From Mesorhizobium huakuii (GTDB lineage: Bacteria > Pseudomonadota > Alphaproteobacteria > Rhizobiales > Rhizobiaceae): a stretch of 64,000 bases of DNA. The stretch lies in assembly GCF_014189455.1 (NCBI RefSeq), contig NZ_CP050296.1, forward strand, positions 4,894,001 to 4,958,000. The letters are read 5' to 3'. Both the position numbers and the translations under genes were made by a program. The notes beneath the pieces are model-generated. The model ran no database searches, had not been told where the DNA came from, and saw only the letters and a list, made by a program, of their open reading frames with translations. Shown piece by piece: positions 27,836 through 33,959 of this stretch. Each line of letters opens with the position of its first letter. Within the stretch, counting starts at the first letter, position 1.

Positions 27836-29067
27836 GCGCGCGCTTCACCATCAAAAAGCTGGGCGCCCAGGGCGACGGCATTGCCGAGACCGAAAGCGGC
27901 GACCTGTTCATTCCCTTCACGCTGCCGGGCGAGGTTGTCACCGCCGCGCGCGAACGGGATCGCGCCACGCTGATGGCGGTGCTGGAAGCCTCACCACTGC
28001 GCATCGATCCGGCCTGCCGCCATTTCACCGAATGCGGCGGCTGTGCCCTCCAGCATTTCGAGACCGAGGCCTATCGCCAGTGGAAACGCGACAAGGTGGT
28101 GCACGCCCTGAAGGGCTTCGATTGCGACATCGATCCGCTGGTCGCCTGCGCGCCGCACACGCGCCGCCGTGTCGTGCTTGCCGCGCGGCGCGCCGAGACG
28201 GGCATGCTGCTCGGCTTCAACCGCCATCTGTCGCCGGAAATCATTTCCATATCGGAATGCCCGATCTCGCTGCCCGAGATCGTCGCCGCGCTCGACCGGC
28301 TGAGGGCGCTCGCCGATTTGATATGCGCCACCACCAAATCGTTCCGGATGGCGGTCACCGTGACCGGTTCCGGCCTCGACGTTGCGGTGCATGAGTCCGG
28401 CAAGCTCGGCGAACACCAGCGCCGCATCGCCTCCAACTTCGTCCTTGCGCAAGGCTTTGCCAGACTGTCCATCGATGACGAGATCGTCATCGAACCGAGG
28501 AAGCCCGTGGTGATGTTCGGCAGCGTTGCCGTCGCCGTGCCGCCTGGCGCCTTCCTGCAGGCGACCGAGGCCGCCGAACAGACCATGGCCGAGATTGTCG
28601 GCACACATCTGAAGCGCGCCAAGAAGGTCGCCGATCTTTTCGCCGGTTGCGGCAGCTTTGCCTTGCGGTTGGCCGCGAAGTCGGAAGTCCATGCGGTGGA
28701 AGGCGATGCGGCCGCACTTTCAGCGCTCGACCGGGGGGCACGTTTCGCCACCGGCTTGAAGCGGGTGACGGGCGAACGCCGCGACCTGTTTCGCCGTCCG
28801 CTGACGTTCAAGGAATTGAATGCCTTCGACGGCCTTGTCTTCGACCCGCCGCGGGCAGGTGCCGAGGATCAGTCGAAGCAGATCGCCCGCTCTGATGTTC
28901 CCTTCGTTGCCGCGGTGTCCTGCAACCCGGTGACGCTGGCGCGCGACCTGCGCATCCTCATCGACGGTGGCTATCAACTGAAAAGCGTGACGCCGATCGA
29001 CCAGTTCCTGTGGTCGCCCCATGTCGAGGCTGTCGCGCTACTGGAAAAGCCCAAGAAGCGCCGATAG
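27832..29067 (+). CDS. TrmA/RumA-family RNA (uracil-5-)methyltransferase
   Basis: A 411-residue enzyme. A TRAM-like RNA-binding start (KKLGAQGDGIAETESGDLFIPF) is followed by a [4Fe-4S] Cys cluster in CRHFTECGGCALQHF. The SAM motif is VADLFAGCGSFALRLA, and the catalytic Cys is in VSCNPVTLARDL. Members methylate uridines in rRNA or tRNA. Whether the target resembles RlmD, RlmC or TrmA cannot be told. It is coupled to tlyA by an ATGA overlap. Confidence 0.92.
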   Translation: MSARFTIKKLGAQGDGIAETESGDLFIPFTLPGEVVTAARERDRATLMAVLEASPLRIDPACRHFTECGGCALQHFETEAYRQWKRDKVVHALKGFDCDIDPLVACAPHTRRRVVLAARRAETGMLLGFNRHLSPEIISISECPISLPEIVAALDRLRALADLICATTKSFRMAVTVTGSGLDVAVHESGKLGEHQRRIASNFVLAQGFARLSIDDEIVIEPRKPVVMFGSVAVAVPPGAFLQATEAAEQTMAEIVGTHLKRAKKVADLFAGCGSFALRLAAKSEVHAVEGDAAALSALDRGARFATGLKRVTGERRDLFRRPLTFKELNAFDGLVFDPPRAGAEDQSKQIARSDVPFVAAVSCNPVTLARDLRILIDGGYQLKSVTPIDQFLWSPHVEAVALLEKPKKRR

Positions 29068-29258: not shown

Positions 29259-31733
29259 ATGCGGATGCTCCAGAAATTCCTCAGTTTATTCGTCCTCTTG
29301 CTTGTCGTCGCCGCCTCGGCGACGGGCGCGCTCGCGCAACAGCAAAAACGCCTCGCTTTCGTCATCGGCAACGCTGCCTATCCGTCCGGCGCGCTGGTGA
29401 TACCCGCCAACGACGCCGGACTGATCGCGCAGACCTTGCAGGCTGCCGGTTTCGATGTGGTCGGCGCCCGTGATGTAGATCAGGAGTCGCTGCGCGGCGC
29501 GCTGCGCGACTTCCTCGGCAAGGTCTCCGCCGCCGGACCCGACGCGGTCGTCTTCGTCTACCTCGCCGGCCAAGGTGTGCAGTTCGAAGGCGAGAACTAC
29601 TTCCTGCCGGTCGATGCCCAGATCGCCAATCCAGCCGACGTCCCGCTCCAGGCGATGCGGCTCTCCGACGTCACCAAGTCGCTGGCTGGCCTGCCGACGA
29701 AGGTCAACATCGTCGTGCTCGACGCGGCGCGACCGAATGCATTCCCGCAAACGAACCAGCCGCTGGCCGGCGGCCTCGCACTGGTCGATCCCGACCCGAA
29801 CATGCTGATCGCCTTCAACGCCGCCCCGGGCACCGTCGCGCTGGAAGGCAAGGGCCCGTACGGCGCCTATGCCCAGGCGCTGGCCGAGATGATGCGCGAC
29901 GGCGGCCTGTCGCTCGACGATGTGTTCGACCGCACGCGCCTGCGCGTCAACGAAGTGACGCAAGGGGCCGAAGTGCCTTGGAACGCCTCGAAGATCAGCG
30001 CGCCCTTCGTGTTTTTCGATCGTGCCCCGGATGCGCCCGCGCCGAAGGTTTCGGAGGCCGAATCCCAGGCCAACCGGACCAGGGAAATCCGCGACTTCGA
30101 TGCCCACGACGCTTATGTAGCGGCGCTCGATCGCGATACGCTGCGCGGTTATGAGGATTTCGTCGGCGCCTATCCGCACGATCCGATGGCCAAGCGCGTG
30201 CGCGCCATCATCGCAGCGCGGCGCGAGGCGATCACTTGGCGCGAAACCTGGCTACGGGACACGCCGGAAGCCTACTGGTCATATCTCCGGCGCTACCCGC
30301 ATGGCCCGCATGCCTGGGATGCCCGCCGCCGGCTCGAGCATTTCGAAGCGGCCCTGGAGCCCCCGGAAGATTTCACCGTCTACGCCTATGACGTGCCGCC
30401 GCCGCCGGAGGAGGAAATCGTCTACGTCGACCGTCCCGTACTCTATTTCGACGACCCCGATTTCGATTTCGATCCGCCGCCGCCCGTGACGGTGATCTTC
30501 CTGCCGCCACGGCCGCGCGACTTCATCGAATTGCCGCCACCGCCGCCGCCGGTCGGTGTCTTCCTTCTGCCGACACCGGTCTTTGTGCCCGTGCCGGCGT
30601 GGGTCAACCCGCCGCATGACATCTTCCCACCGCCGGACAATGTCATCTTCAACAACATCCACAACACCACGATCATCAACAACACGACGGTCAACGAGAA
30701 CAACAACCAGGGCGGCGGCCTCACCACGGGCCAGAAACTGACCGCCGGCGCCGTGGGCCTGGGTGCGGCCGCACTGGCGACCAAGGTGGCGCTGCCAGCT
30801 CTTCTGCAGAAGAAAGAAGCCGTGCTGTCCAAGCAGAACCCGGGCGGCCTGCCGCTGAAGCCGGGGCAGGGTGGCCAGCAGCCCGGAGGTGCCACGCCGC
30901 TGTCGAAGACCTTGCCTGCCGACAAGCTGACAGGTCATGCCTTGCCCGGCGCCGACGGCAAGACGCTGCCGCTCGTCAATGGCAAGCCGGTGCTGAATGG
31001 ACAGAACCTGCCCAACAACCCGAACCTGCCCAACAACAAGTCTAAGAAGCTGTTGAACAAGCAGGGCACGACAGGTGGAAACGCCGTGACCGGGAACCCG
31101 GTGCTGAATGGACAGAACCTGCCCACCAACCCGAACCTGCCCAACAACAAGTCCAAGAAGCTCTTGAACAAGCAGGTCACGACAGGTGGAAACGCCGTGA
31201 CCGGTAACCCGGTGGTGAATGGGCAAAACGGGGCCAATGGCCAAGGCAATGGGCAGGGCCAGAACGGTACCGGCAAGACTGGCAAGAAGCTCCGCAAGAT
31301 TCCTGACGCCAACGGCACGCCTGCGGCGAATGGAGCGAACAACGCTTCGGCGCTCAATGGCCAGAATTCAGGCCAGAATCCGCCCAATGGCAAGTTCAAG
31401 AAGCTTCACAACCAAGGCAGTGGCCAGACGAACGGCCAGGCCAATGGGCAAGGCGGTGGGGCACAGGGCAATGGCAACGGTCCCAAATTCCACAAGCTGC
31501 CCGCCAACGGAAACGGTGGTGGCAATGTCCAGCAGAAATTCAAGGTCAACAATGGCAATCCGCAGCTGAAGGTGCAGGGTCAACCGAAGCCGCAGAGGCC
31601 GGAGTTCCACGCCCAGCCGAAGCAGGAGATCCAGCAGGTGCACCGGCAGCCGCAGGCGCAGCCAAAGCCGCAGCCGCCAGCCGTCAAGAAGCCGTCTTGC
31701 GGGCACCCCAATGAGCCCGCTTGCAAGAAATAG
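29259..31733 (+). CDS. Exported caspase-fold protein with dead active site and repeat tail
   Basis: An 824-residue protein. A signal peptide (about 1–27) precedes a caspase/metacaspase p20-like domain (KRLAFVIGNAAYPSG … NYFLPVDAQI), about residues 28–255. Both catalytic residues are replaced: the His of the usual AGHGVQ is Gln105 (AGQGVQ) and the Cys of LDACR is Ala157 (LDAAR). Then come helical repeats, a Pro/Asp-rich region, an Asn-rich stretch, a hydrophobic segment near 495–515, and an Asn/Gly/Gln/Lys-rich tail with 37-residue repeats, ending SCGHPNEPACKK. It is probably a scaffold or binding protein. It stands alone after the RNA methyltransferase operon. Confidence 0.85.
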   Translation: MRMLQKFLSLFVLLLVVAASATGALAQQQKRLAFVIGNAAYPSGALVIPANDAGLIAQTLQAAGFDVVGARDVDQESLRGALRDFLGKVSAAGPDAVVFVYLAGQGVQFEGENYFLPVDAQIANPADVPLQAMRLSDVTKSLAGLPTKVNIVVLDAARPNAFPQTNQPLAGGLALVDPDPNMLIAFNAAPGTVALEGKGPYGAYAQALAEMMRDGGLSLDDVFDRTRLRVNEVTQGAEVPWNASKISAPFVFFDRAPDAPAPKVSEAESQANRTREIRDFDAHDAYVAALDRDTLRGYEDFVGAYPHDPMAKRVRAIIAARREAITWRETWLRDTPEAYWSYLRRYPHGPHAWDARRRLEHFEAALEPPEDFTVYAYDVPPPPEEEIVYVDRPVLYFDDPDFDFDPPPPVTVIFLPPRPRDFIELPPPPPPVGVFLLPTPVFVPVPAWVNPPHDIFPPPDNVIFNNIHNTTIINNTTVNENNNQGGGLTTGQKLTAGAVGLGAAALATKVALPALLQKKEAVLSKQNPGGLPLKPGQGGQQPGGATPLSKTLPADKLTGHALPGADGKTLPLVNGKPVLNGQNLPNNPNLPNNKSKKLLNKQGTTGGNAVTGNPVLNGQNLPTNPNLPNNKSKKLLNKQVTTGGNAVTGNPVVNGQNGANGQGNGQGQNGTGKTGKKLRKIPDANGTPAANGANNASALNGQNSGQNPPNGKFKKLHNQGSGQTNGQANGQGGGAQGNGNGPKFHKLPANGNGGGNVQQKFKVNNGNPQLKVQGQPKPQRPEFHAQPKQEIQQVHRQPQAQPKPQPPAVKKPSCGHPNEPACKK
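30990..31211 (+). repeat. Two tandem 111-bp coding repeats, third partial copy follows
   Basis: Units 30990–31100 and 31101–31211 are near-identical and encode 37 residues each (VLNGQNLP-NPNLPNNKSKKLLNK…). A third unit starts at 31212 but diverges after about 10 residues. They lie in the tail of the caspase-like protein and may vary in number between strains. Confidence 0.9.
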
Positions 31734-31972: not shown

Positions 31973-32245
31973 ATGAGGATTGCAAGCGTTCTGACGTCTA
32001 TCGCCGTGGCCGGTTTCATCGCGACGGGAGTCGCCGCGGCAGCGACGACGGCGGCCACGACGACCACTGCGCCGGCCGCCACCACGGCCGCCCCCATGAA
32101 GAAGGCGCCGGCGACTGCCATGACGCCGGAGAAAACCGCTATTTCGAAGCAATGTTCAGCCCTTGCCGACGCCAAGAAGCTGCACGGCAAGGCGCGCGAG
32201 AAATTCCGGGCCGACTGCAAGAAGAACGGCGGCAAACCCACCTGA
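31973..32245 (+). CDS. PsiF-repeat-like exported protein
   Basis: A 90-residue protein. A signal peptide (MRIASVLTSIAVAGFIATGVAAA) is followed by a Thr/Ala-rich linker and one PsiF-like motif (SKQCSALADAKKLHGKAREKFRADCKKNG) with two Cys that could pair. PsiF proteins were named for phosphate-starvation induction in E. coli; their function is unknown. The ATG at 31973 lies 9 bases after GGGAG. No Pho box was identified. Confidence 0.75.
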   Translation: MRIASVLTSIAVAGFIATGVAAAATTAATTTTAPAATTAAPMKKAPATAMTPEKTAISKQCSALADAKKLHGKAREKFRADCKKNGGKPT

Positions 32246-32449: not shown

Positions 32450-33214
32450 TCAGTCTACGAGTTTGGCAACGTTTGTTAGGGTCTTCGGCGTGCCACCCCG
32501 CTGGTTGATCGACAGCCAGATATTCGGGTTCTGCTGCGACTGGCGTTTCAGGAAGTAGTAGCCGGTCGCGTTCCAGGGCCTGATTTCGTCGACCAGATTG
32601 TCGAGGACGAGATCGCCCTTGTCGGTTTTCACCGTCAGGATGGTGTGGCCTTCATTGTCAAGATCGTGCACCACGGTCATCAGCAGCGCCTGCCGGGGGA
32701 ACCCAGCCTCCTGAAGAAGCTTGCGCTTGTAGAGTGCGTAGATCTTGCAGTCGCCCTTGCCGTCAACCGGGTAATCCCAGTGGTCTACCATCGTGCCCCA
32801 GTGCTCGAAATTGCTGACGGGCTTGATGTCGTTGTTTGCCTTGAGGTTTATCCGATTGAGGATGCGCAGGTTCTGTGCGGTCAGCTTGACGTTCGTGGCC
32901 GGCAGCGCGGGGACCTTGCACTCTTTTGGCCGGCGATGGCAGAAATCGAGCCAGCCGTAAGGAACGCTGGTACGTCCACCAACCGAGGCGAAGCGCAAGG
33001 CATCCGCGGATGGTTGCGTCTTCCTGAGCAATGTCGACTGTTTGAGTAAAGTGGATTGCGCTGAAGCCGAACCGACATCCAACGAAGTTGCACCAATCAG
33101 CGAAACACTGCCAAGCAGGAACGAGGAAGTCAGGACGCCGAGGGAACGCAGCACTGGCAACACCACCGTACGAGAGCACCGATCAACGGTAATGTGGTGA
33201 CGGCGCACGATCAA
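32450..33214 (-). CDS. Transglutaminase-like cysteine peptidase (BTLCP)
   Basis: A 254-residue exported protein with a signal-like hydrophobic N-terminus (about 18–45) and a transglutaminase-like fold. The catalytic triad is visible: Cys in GKGDCKIYALYKR, His in EGHTILTV and Asp in LVLDNLVDE. BTLCP proteins (the LapG group) are periplasmic; LapG cleaves a biofilm adhesin under c-di-GMP control. No adhesin or LapD gene adjoins it here, so the substrate is open. It lies alone on the minus strand. Confidence 0.88.
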   Translation of the reverse strand: MIVRRHHITVDRCSRTVVLPVLRSLGVLTSSFLLGSVSLIGATSLDVGSASAQSTLLKQSTLLRKTQPSADALRFASVGGRTSVPYGWLDFCHRRPKECKVPALPATNVKLTAQNLRILNRINLKANNDIKPVSNFEHWGTMVDHWDYPVDGKGDCKIYALYKRKLLQEAGFPRQALLMTVVHDLDNEGHTILTVKTDKGDLVLDNLVDEIRPWNATGYYFLKRQSQQNPNIWLSINQRGGTPKTLTNVAKLVD

Positions 33215-33307: not shown

Positions 33308-33697
33308 CTATGCTTCTTGCACGTCCCCAAGCCCCGCCGCTTGCGCCGCCTTGATCAATTTGCGGTCGAAGGTCACGAATCCCGTACAATGCGCCGACTT
33401 GCCGAGGTGTAGCGCATCCGCGAGATCCACACCGGCCTCGACCAGATCGAGCGCGGAAGAGACAAGCGCCGCGTCTTCGATTTCAACCGTGGGAAGGCCG
33501 CCGAACGCCCGCAAAGCTCTGACGACAGTGGCCTGGTGATAGCCGTAGGCGCTGCGCAGCACCCACTCGGCTTCCAGGATAACCGTCACAGCGACAAATA
33601 CCTGTCGGTCATCGATGACGCGCCGGGCGCGCGAGGATTGCTCGGGATGGTCGTTGGTCAGGTACCGAACGACAATATTGGTATCAATCGCGAGCAT
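33308..33697 (-). CDS. VapC-like PIN-domain toxin
   Basis: A 129-residue PIN-domain ribonuclease. The four acidic metal-site residues appear in order: Asp in LAIDTNIVVRYL, Glu in ILEAEWVL, Asp in GVDLADALHL and Asp in FVTFDRKLI. The ATG at 33697 overlaps the AbrB-type antitoxin gene by 14 bp. VapC toxins cut tRNA or rRNA; the target is unknown. Confidence 0.92.
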   Translation of the reverse strand: MLAIDTNIVVRYLTNDHPEQSSRARRVIDDRQVFVAVTVILEAEWVLRSAYGYHQATVVRALRAFGGLPTVEIEDAALVSSALDLVEAGVDLADALHLGKSAHCTGFVTFDRKLIKAAQAAGLGDVQEA

Positions 33698-33959
33698 GCC
33701 GCCGCCGTGCTTCGGCGAGAACGCCCGCATCCATGTCTTCAAGTGTCTTCGGCCTGCCGTTATGGGGCAGGAAACCAAAGACGTCTTGAGGCCGGGTTGC
33801 GGCGAAGGCAGGTGCTGGCTTCAAAAGAACGCCCTCCGGCGTGTCTTCGACCTCCAGGCGGGTGCCGGCGCCCCATTCCCTGCGTTTGCGGATCGCGCTC
33901 GGCAGGATCACTTGCCCCTTGGTCGAGACGGTGGTGGTGAGCTTTTCGGAGCCGGCCAT
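33684..33959 (-). CDS. AbrB/MazE-type (VapB) antitoxin
   Basis: A 91-residue antitoxin with an N-terminal SpoVT/AbrB swapped-hairpin DNA-binding domain (TTTVSTKGQVILPSAIRKRREW, GTRLEVED). The C-terminal part should bind the VapC toxin encoded downstream with a 14-bp overlap. Such proteins repress their own promoter. Two TCTTAC direct repeats 11 bp apart lie just upstream. Confidence 0.92.
   Translation of the reverse strand: MAGSEKLTTTVSTKGQVILPSAIRKRREWGAGTRLEVEDTPEGVLLKPAPAFAATRPQDVFGFLPHNGRPKTLEDMDAGVLAEARRRHARD

Follow-up and report, generated by a model that had tools for sequence, protein, structure and literature searches.

Dead caspases have been described in animals, trypanosomes, and cyanobacteria, and pseudo-orthocaspases of the Rhizobiales, including members with Tyr-Ala and His-Ala dyads and some with long tails, were surveyed by Klemencic et al. 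(2019; PMC6426788). Many substituted dyads were also recorded in the Alphaproteobacteria (Asplund-Samuelsson et al., 2012; PMC3501461). Elsewhere, knock-out of the Synechocystis pseudo-orthocaspase SyOC raised H2O2 tolerance (PMC7889975), and human FLIP(L) is a caspase paralog without catalytic activity (PMC7586951) that serves as a dimerization partner of caspase-8 (PMC6426788). The protein analyzed here resembles the Rhizobiales pseudo-orthocaspases of the survey in being alphaproteobacterial and in combining a caspase p20 domain with the absence of the His-Cys dyad, and its relatives were probably included in the survey set, the main text of which does not name Mesorhizobium. It differs in its Gln-Ala pair, a dyad absent from those listed in the passages of the survey at hand, which also do not describe its helical YWSYL module or its terminal Cys pair (PMC6426788). 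SyOC is likewise a dead orthocaspase, likened here by description only and cyanobacterial (PMC7889975), while FLIP(L) is a non-catalytic caspase relative of animal origin (PMC7586951). An earlier note on this DNA had ranked the gene as its best candidate for undescribed biology; the kind is in print, but a tested function for its rhizobial members was not found in those survey passages (PMC6426788), and a literature search, excluding subscription papers and preprints, found no functional study of this rhizobial protein among the papers listed. A peptidase C14 match in PMC4550343 was set aside, as the part of the paper at hand concerns another gene.

The window, i.e., the whole 64,000-nucleotide stretch of Mesorhizobium huakuii DNA that was analyzed, contains the gene as an intact frame of 824 residues plus a stop codon, and reading further upstream meets no stop codon as far as a GTG at 29010 (Table 1). 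The sole Pfam match of the protein was Peptidase_C14 (PF00656; residues 30-250, E 3.8e-35). Both the full open frame and the caspase p20-like fold that had been proposed from the letters alone were confirmed. In NCBIfam, caspase_w_EACC1 matched far under its cut-off alongside one chance-level match, and a promoter scan found none. The proposed signal peptide was upheld as putative: residues 7-25 are hydrophobic (mean Kyte-Doolittle 2.39) and 'ALA' precedes Gln27, so that the N-terminus looks like a signal peptide. These signal-like residues (2-26) evolve fast, with a median dN/dS of 0.54.

Table 1. Positions in the window of the pseudo-orthocaspase gene and of the features read within it.
Feature	Position	Strand	Basis
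Whole gene, 824 aa, exported-looking pseudo-orthocaspase	29259..31733	+	Open frame; Pfam PF00656
Signal-peptide-like segment, residues 1-26	29259..29336	+	Sequence; hydrophobicity
Catalytically dead caspase domain, residues 28-262	29340..30044	+	
Asp52, substrate-pocket acid	29412..29414	+	77/77 orthologs; 50/52 dead rows of the order
Gln105, at the catalytic His position; H/Q/R/Y/E/N among orthologs	29571..29573	+	
Asp155, second pocket acid	29721..29723	+	77/77 orthologs; 52/52 dead rows of the order
Ala157, at the catalytic Cys position	29727..29729	+	Ala in 77/77 orthologs
All-helical module, residues 265-362	30051..30344	+	Helices in the model; dN/dS 0.133 for residues 265-400
Pro-rich stretch, residues 368-462	30360..30644	+	Sequence; P 0.21 in residues 401-505
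Asn-rich stretch, residues 461-484	30639..30710	+	Sequence
Gly/Ala-rich hydrophobic segment, residues 496-516	30744..30806	+	Hydrophobicity
111-base (37-residue) tandem repeat, 2.2 copies, 93% match	30987..31229	+	
C-terminal Cys pair, Cys814-Cys822	31698..31724	+	End motif conserved in the genus

Residue 105 is Gln within YLAGQGVQ and residue 157 is Ala within VVLDAAR. In a phmmer alignment these two are paired with the His of GHG and the Cys of LDMC in human MALT1, which we take to be the catalytic residues of that paracaspase, and the replacement of both catalytic residues claimed in the earlier note was therefore corroborated. MALT1 has His and Cys as well as Ig domains, in contrast to the window protein, which lacks the His-Cys pair. 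The p20 domain of orthocaspases is present by both the Pfam match and the fold match, and the His-Cys dyad of active orthocaspases is absent (Cys in 0/77 orthologs), which places the protein among the pseudo-orthocaspases, defined as having a p20 domain in which at least one residue of the dyad is substituted. A structure model built from 86 sequences predicted a confident caspase fold, intact in the model and nearest to MALT1, aligning with MALT1 residues 340-563 at approximately 21% identity over the aligned part. The alignment behind this model includes His-Cys relatives, so the predicted fold is partly informed by them, and the fold comparison was little informative on the middle helical module; an earlier model from 17 sequences (pLDDT 53.6) was too poor and was not used.

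The 77 orthologs comprised 75 copies in at least 72 of the 146 genomes of the genus, a lower bound as six candidates were scored per genome, and two copies from another genus of the family. They represent 76 distinct sequences over the compared stretch, where L001 and L031 from different genomes are alike (L112 was dropped as the same locus as L033). Ala157 was present in all 77 and encoded by all four Ala codons, whereas residue 105 was His in 34, Gln in 24, Arg in 11, Tyr in five, Glu in two, and Asn in one, the seventh highest entropy among the 233 sites of the domain. In a protein database set of 121 (the window protein plus its 120 best matches, overlapping the 77), residue 157 was Ala in 120 and Ser in one, and residue 105 was His in 45, Gln in 42, Arg in 18, Tyr in 14, and Glu in two. 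The fixed feature is thus the absent Cys, while the absence of the His varies among orthologs; of the two residues whose fixation the earlier note had asked about, Ala157 is fixed and Gln105 is not. No ortholog carries both His and Cys, so the homologs with an intact pair in near-identical strains that would have indicated a decaying gene were not encountered. On a quick tree calculated with column 105 left out, residue 105 changed in 15 steps, a count that depends on many weak forks, and the starred branches alone force at least four changes of His.

Upstream of the gene, RlmD was found on the same strand in 67 of the 75 genus copies (65 within 250 bases and two at approximately 1.2 kb; median gap of the 67, 172 bases), and a BTLCP cysteine-protease gene was convergent downstream in 56 of the 75, as counted from 73 of the 85 BTLCP rows and part of the 146 RlmD rows (the other 12 BTLCP rows alter none of the counts). 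RlmD and BTLCP were rejected as operon partners, since 31 loci outside the genus yielded none of the eight window neighbors within flanks of at most 4 kb; in 19 of these loci a neighbor resembles tyrosyl-tRNA synthetase by eye. The RlmD/BTLCP neighborhood is therefore read as location and not function. In the window, the BTLCP gene (32450-33214, reverse strand) encodes a bacterial transglutaminase-like cysteine proteinase (Pfam C93, E 4.4e-58), with relatives at E 1e-50 in 79 of the 146 genus genomes. A small exported-looking Ala/Thr-rich protein is encoded at 31973-32242 (forward strand), with a weak sub-cut-off match to 'New glue', and at 33308-33959 (reverse strand) a PIN-domain gene (Pfam E 2.3e-9) overlaps the end of a 91-residue ORF that is AbrB-like by eye, likely constituting a VapBC-type toxin-antitoxin pair. 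Two dead-caspase copies each were observed in G007, G046, and G062, the second copy lying away from RlmD. Eight other caspase-domain places were read in the window's genome (L058-L065 and 3539894-3540673), all with His and Cys, and a tenth caspase match was counted there beyond those read.

The caspase domain is under purifying selection, with a median pairwise dN/dS of 0.116 and a maximum of 0.229 among 2661 pairs with dS from 0.1 to 1. Sorted by residue 105, the medians were 0.115 for His, 0.097 for Gln, and 0.078 for Arg. Similar values (0.074-0.148) were obtained for intact His-Cys paralogs in 21 same-group pairs that were picked by hand (dN < 0.11) among the pairs listed, and the 31 loci outside the genus gave a median of 0.065 and a maximum of 0.309 (295 pairs). 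No sign of the relaxed selection that the earlier note had named as a warning was detected, and the low median together with the absence of Cys from all 77 orthologs supports its proposal of a kept non-enzymatic role. That the gene is instead decaying could be argued from its dispensability, as for 74 of the 146 genomes of the genus none of the matches scored (six candidates per genome) reached E 1e-100. Twelve loci without the gene were examined at RlmD or BTLCP sites, one of them in G148, a genome that carries the gene at another place, and three of the 12 retain traces: tail pieces in G015, where the caspase domain was not found, and short pieces with weak E-values in G131 and G012. Against decay, the frame is open wherever the gene is present (0 of 75 listed matches with an internal stop), dN/dS stays near 0.12 with the bearers of Gln and Arg no higher than those of His, and gene loss resembles deletion rather than slow decay. 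Among the genomes lacking a match, 14 have RlmD on the same contig as the downstream BTLCP gene, the two being 20 to 2206 bases apart. Decay is thus very unlikely and already largely refuted, and it is with high confidence that we regard the protein as neither a Cys protease nor a product of a decaying gene. It is a real, conserved protein belonging to an already known kind, its function unproven.

Comparison beyond the genus suggested that the loss of the Cys is old. A named-genome scan, of which the best 80 of 417 loci were kept, gave loci from Mesorhizobium, Rhizobium, Phyllobacterium, Agrobacterium, Labrys, a Pseudolabrys bin, and Rhizobiales/Hyphomicrobiales records, all 80 with Ala157 and 50 of them identical to one of the 77 orthologs over the compared stretch. 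Tyr105 was shared by the 31 least similar of the 80 (L176-L206), which show 64-70% identity and include no locus named Mesorhizobium. Two candidates were scored per genome in the order and class searches, which therefore give minimum counts of presence: among 397 order genomes, at least 82 had matches at E 1e-55, dead and active relatives together, and among 385 genomes across the class at least six had matches at E 1e-70, namely the window's own, four of the order, and G789 of another order. The 69 order loci that were read comprised 13 with His-Cys and 56 with dead pairs, among which Tyr-Ala was commonest (31), followed by Tyr-Gly, Leu-Ser, Tyr-Ser, Val-Ser, Glu-Ala, and others. Judged by eye, the locus from the other alphaproteobacterial order (L278 in G789) combines a His-Ala pair with a YWTYL module and two Cys close to the end.

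Columns 105 and 157 were left out of an unrooted tree of 106 caspase domains, in which one branch with support 100 separated 68 dead rows (67 distinct) from 38 His-Cys rows (37 distinct). After removal of eight long-branch rows (L062-L065, L243, L246, L262, and L272), the split of 65 versus 33 rows (64 and 33 distinct) had 100/100 support and was present in 200/200 bootstrap trees. Copies and near copies (L207, L208, L210, L235, and L274) were left out of the tree, the parsimony, and the end-Cys counts, L262 also of the parsimony; L063 and L064 are one gene, so that 25 His-Cys loci correspond to 24 genes and 38 to 37, and L204 equals L215. The profile used for the order, class, and named-genome scans, the source of most dead rows, was built from dead members, and the His-Cys rows were the 13 next matches of this search plus 25 from a search with the window protein; the A2 set held the window protein and 85 of 105 references. 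The single split between dead and His-Cys rows points to the Cys having been lost once, probably in an old ancestor, after which Tyr probably became the usual residue at position 105. Under equal-cost parsimony on 175 rows (171 distinct), the ancestor shared by Mesorhizobium and its closest relatives was reconstructed with Tyr and the base of the genus itself with His, although the order of Tyr before His at that base hangs on one step. Based on this reconstruction, Gln105 of the window protein probably arose late, from a His that had been regained but served no purpose, and the states within Mesorhizobium are probably later drift. The history implied by the earlier note, a change from His/Cys to Gln/Ala, is unlikely under the sequence Cys loss, Tyr at 105, and later Gln.

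Around the old active site, Asp52, Asp155, Gly104, Gly106, Gln108, and Arg158 are invariant in the 77 orthologs. Asp52 is presumably the counterpart of MALT1 Asp365, and Asp52 and Asp155 lie opposite what we take to be the MALT1 acids holding a basic residue. A third pocket acid, Asp196, was Asp in 13/13 His-Cys rows and in 4/52 dead rows of the order set (the 52 exclude L207, L208, L210, and L274 and include L235), indicating that the pocket was not kept whole. Two pocket Asp residues are reported as highly conserved in pseudo-orthocaspases (PMC6426788), and in our own mapping these would correspond to Asp52 and Asp155.

Beyond the caspase domain, the helical module carries a conserved hallmark, YWSYLRRYPxGPHxxDARRRL, and resembles TPR/BamD repeats by eye. 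Residues 263-374 had no Pfam match at E 5, and among six relatives scanned one His-Cys relative matched YfiO at a sub-cut-off E of 0.019. Protein length ranged from 476 to 944 residues (median 845, truncated ones included) and tail length varies; in the window protein, residues 498-516 are the most hydrophobic 19 past residue 290 (mean 1.74). The 37-residue repeat noted earlier is real, yet it does not look like a family feature, since in a crude count over 15 proteins its motif occurred twice in the window protein, once in five, and in none of the remaining nine. The terminal Cys pair, scored with at most three residues past the last Cys and with identical-sequence duplicates dropped, was found in 73/75 genus copies, 55/81 other dead copies, and 0/37 distinct His-Cys relatives, and was hence absent in 26/81 copies outside the genus. 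The two genus misses were L107, which lies at the edge of a contig, and L111, a copy of 476 aa, and 71/75 genus copies have exactly two Cys past residue 27. The pair is presumed to form a disulfide loop.

Taken together, the dead caspases of these related soil bacteria probably bind something rather than cut. We consider the odds about even that the window protein is a non-catalytic caspase-fold binding protein of the envelope, with pocket acids, a spacer tail, and a C-terminal disulfide anchor. In such a mechanism, the protein would be exported to the cell envelope, and the dead caspase domain would act as a binding module in which Asp52 and Asp155 could hold an Arg- or Lys-bearing peptide or protein. 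The helical module would supply a further surface for contacts, the tail with its Pro-rich, Asn-rich, and low-complexity stretches would be a flexible spacer, and the C-terminal Cys pair might become a disulfide loop or anchor in the oxidizing periplasm. We know of no binding partner or phenotype for the protein. The binding reading is favored by the fixed Ala157, the purifying selection on the domain, the single split from His-Cys relatives, the confident caspase model, the constancy of Asp52 and Asp155 in the 77 orthologs although residue 105 drifts, and by the end Cys pair occurring in dead copies and in no His-Cys relative; it is weakened by the copies outside the genus that lack this pair, by the scarcity of Asp196 in dead rows, by the neighbors of the 31 loci outside the genus, which offered no partner, and by the dispensability of the gene.

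The main rival is that the caspase domain is a stable N-terminal cap with an empty pocket, the helical module and tail being the useful parts. Residue 105 among the most variable sites, the mostly missing third pocket acid, and a helical part conserved to a degree similar to that of the caspase domain (dN/dS 0.133 vs. 0.116) all fit a cap, but a cap should permit drift at the six residues found invariant around the old site, and we regard it as doubtful though serious. A decoy or partner regulating active caspase paralogs, as human FLIP(L) does for caspase-8, could draw on the eight further caspase-domain places read in this genome, each of which retains His and Cys; with the nearest approximately 490 kb away, this role is improbable. 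At least 72 of the 146 genomes of Mesorhizobium, to our knowledge not a phototroph, carry the gene, which makes a link to photosynthesis extremely improbable. Such a link was proposed for pseudo-orthocaspases in the 2019 survey, from an order-level coincidence with anoxygenic phototrophs (PMC6426788).

Relative to the passages of PMC6426788 and the other papers at hand, the single clean split, the drift of residue 105 within a genus, the hallmark of the helical module, and the terminal Cys pair were not seen in print. More speculatively, and on balance unlikely, the widespread and anciently dead caspase clade of the Hyphomicrobiales may be an envelope receptor for basic peptides, its pocket a pure binding site at one end of a long disordered arm with a disulfide loop at the far end. 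If true, bacteria would have a receptor built on the caspase fold but lacking protease chemistry, and Mesorhizobium would display the natural drift of an ex-catalytic residue. The split from active relatives and the C-terminal Cys pair provide concrete handles for bench work, and the occurrence of the dead clade in many Hyphomicrobiales families, beside eight other caspase genes with intact dyads read in the genome of the window, constitutes a natural experiment on what the caspase fold does when it does not cut.
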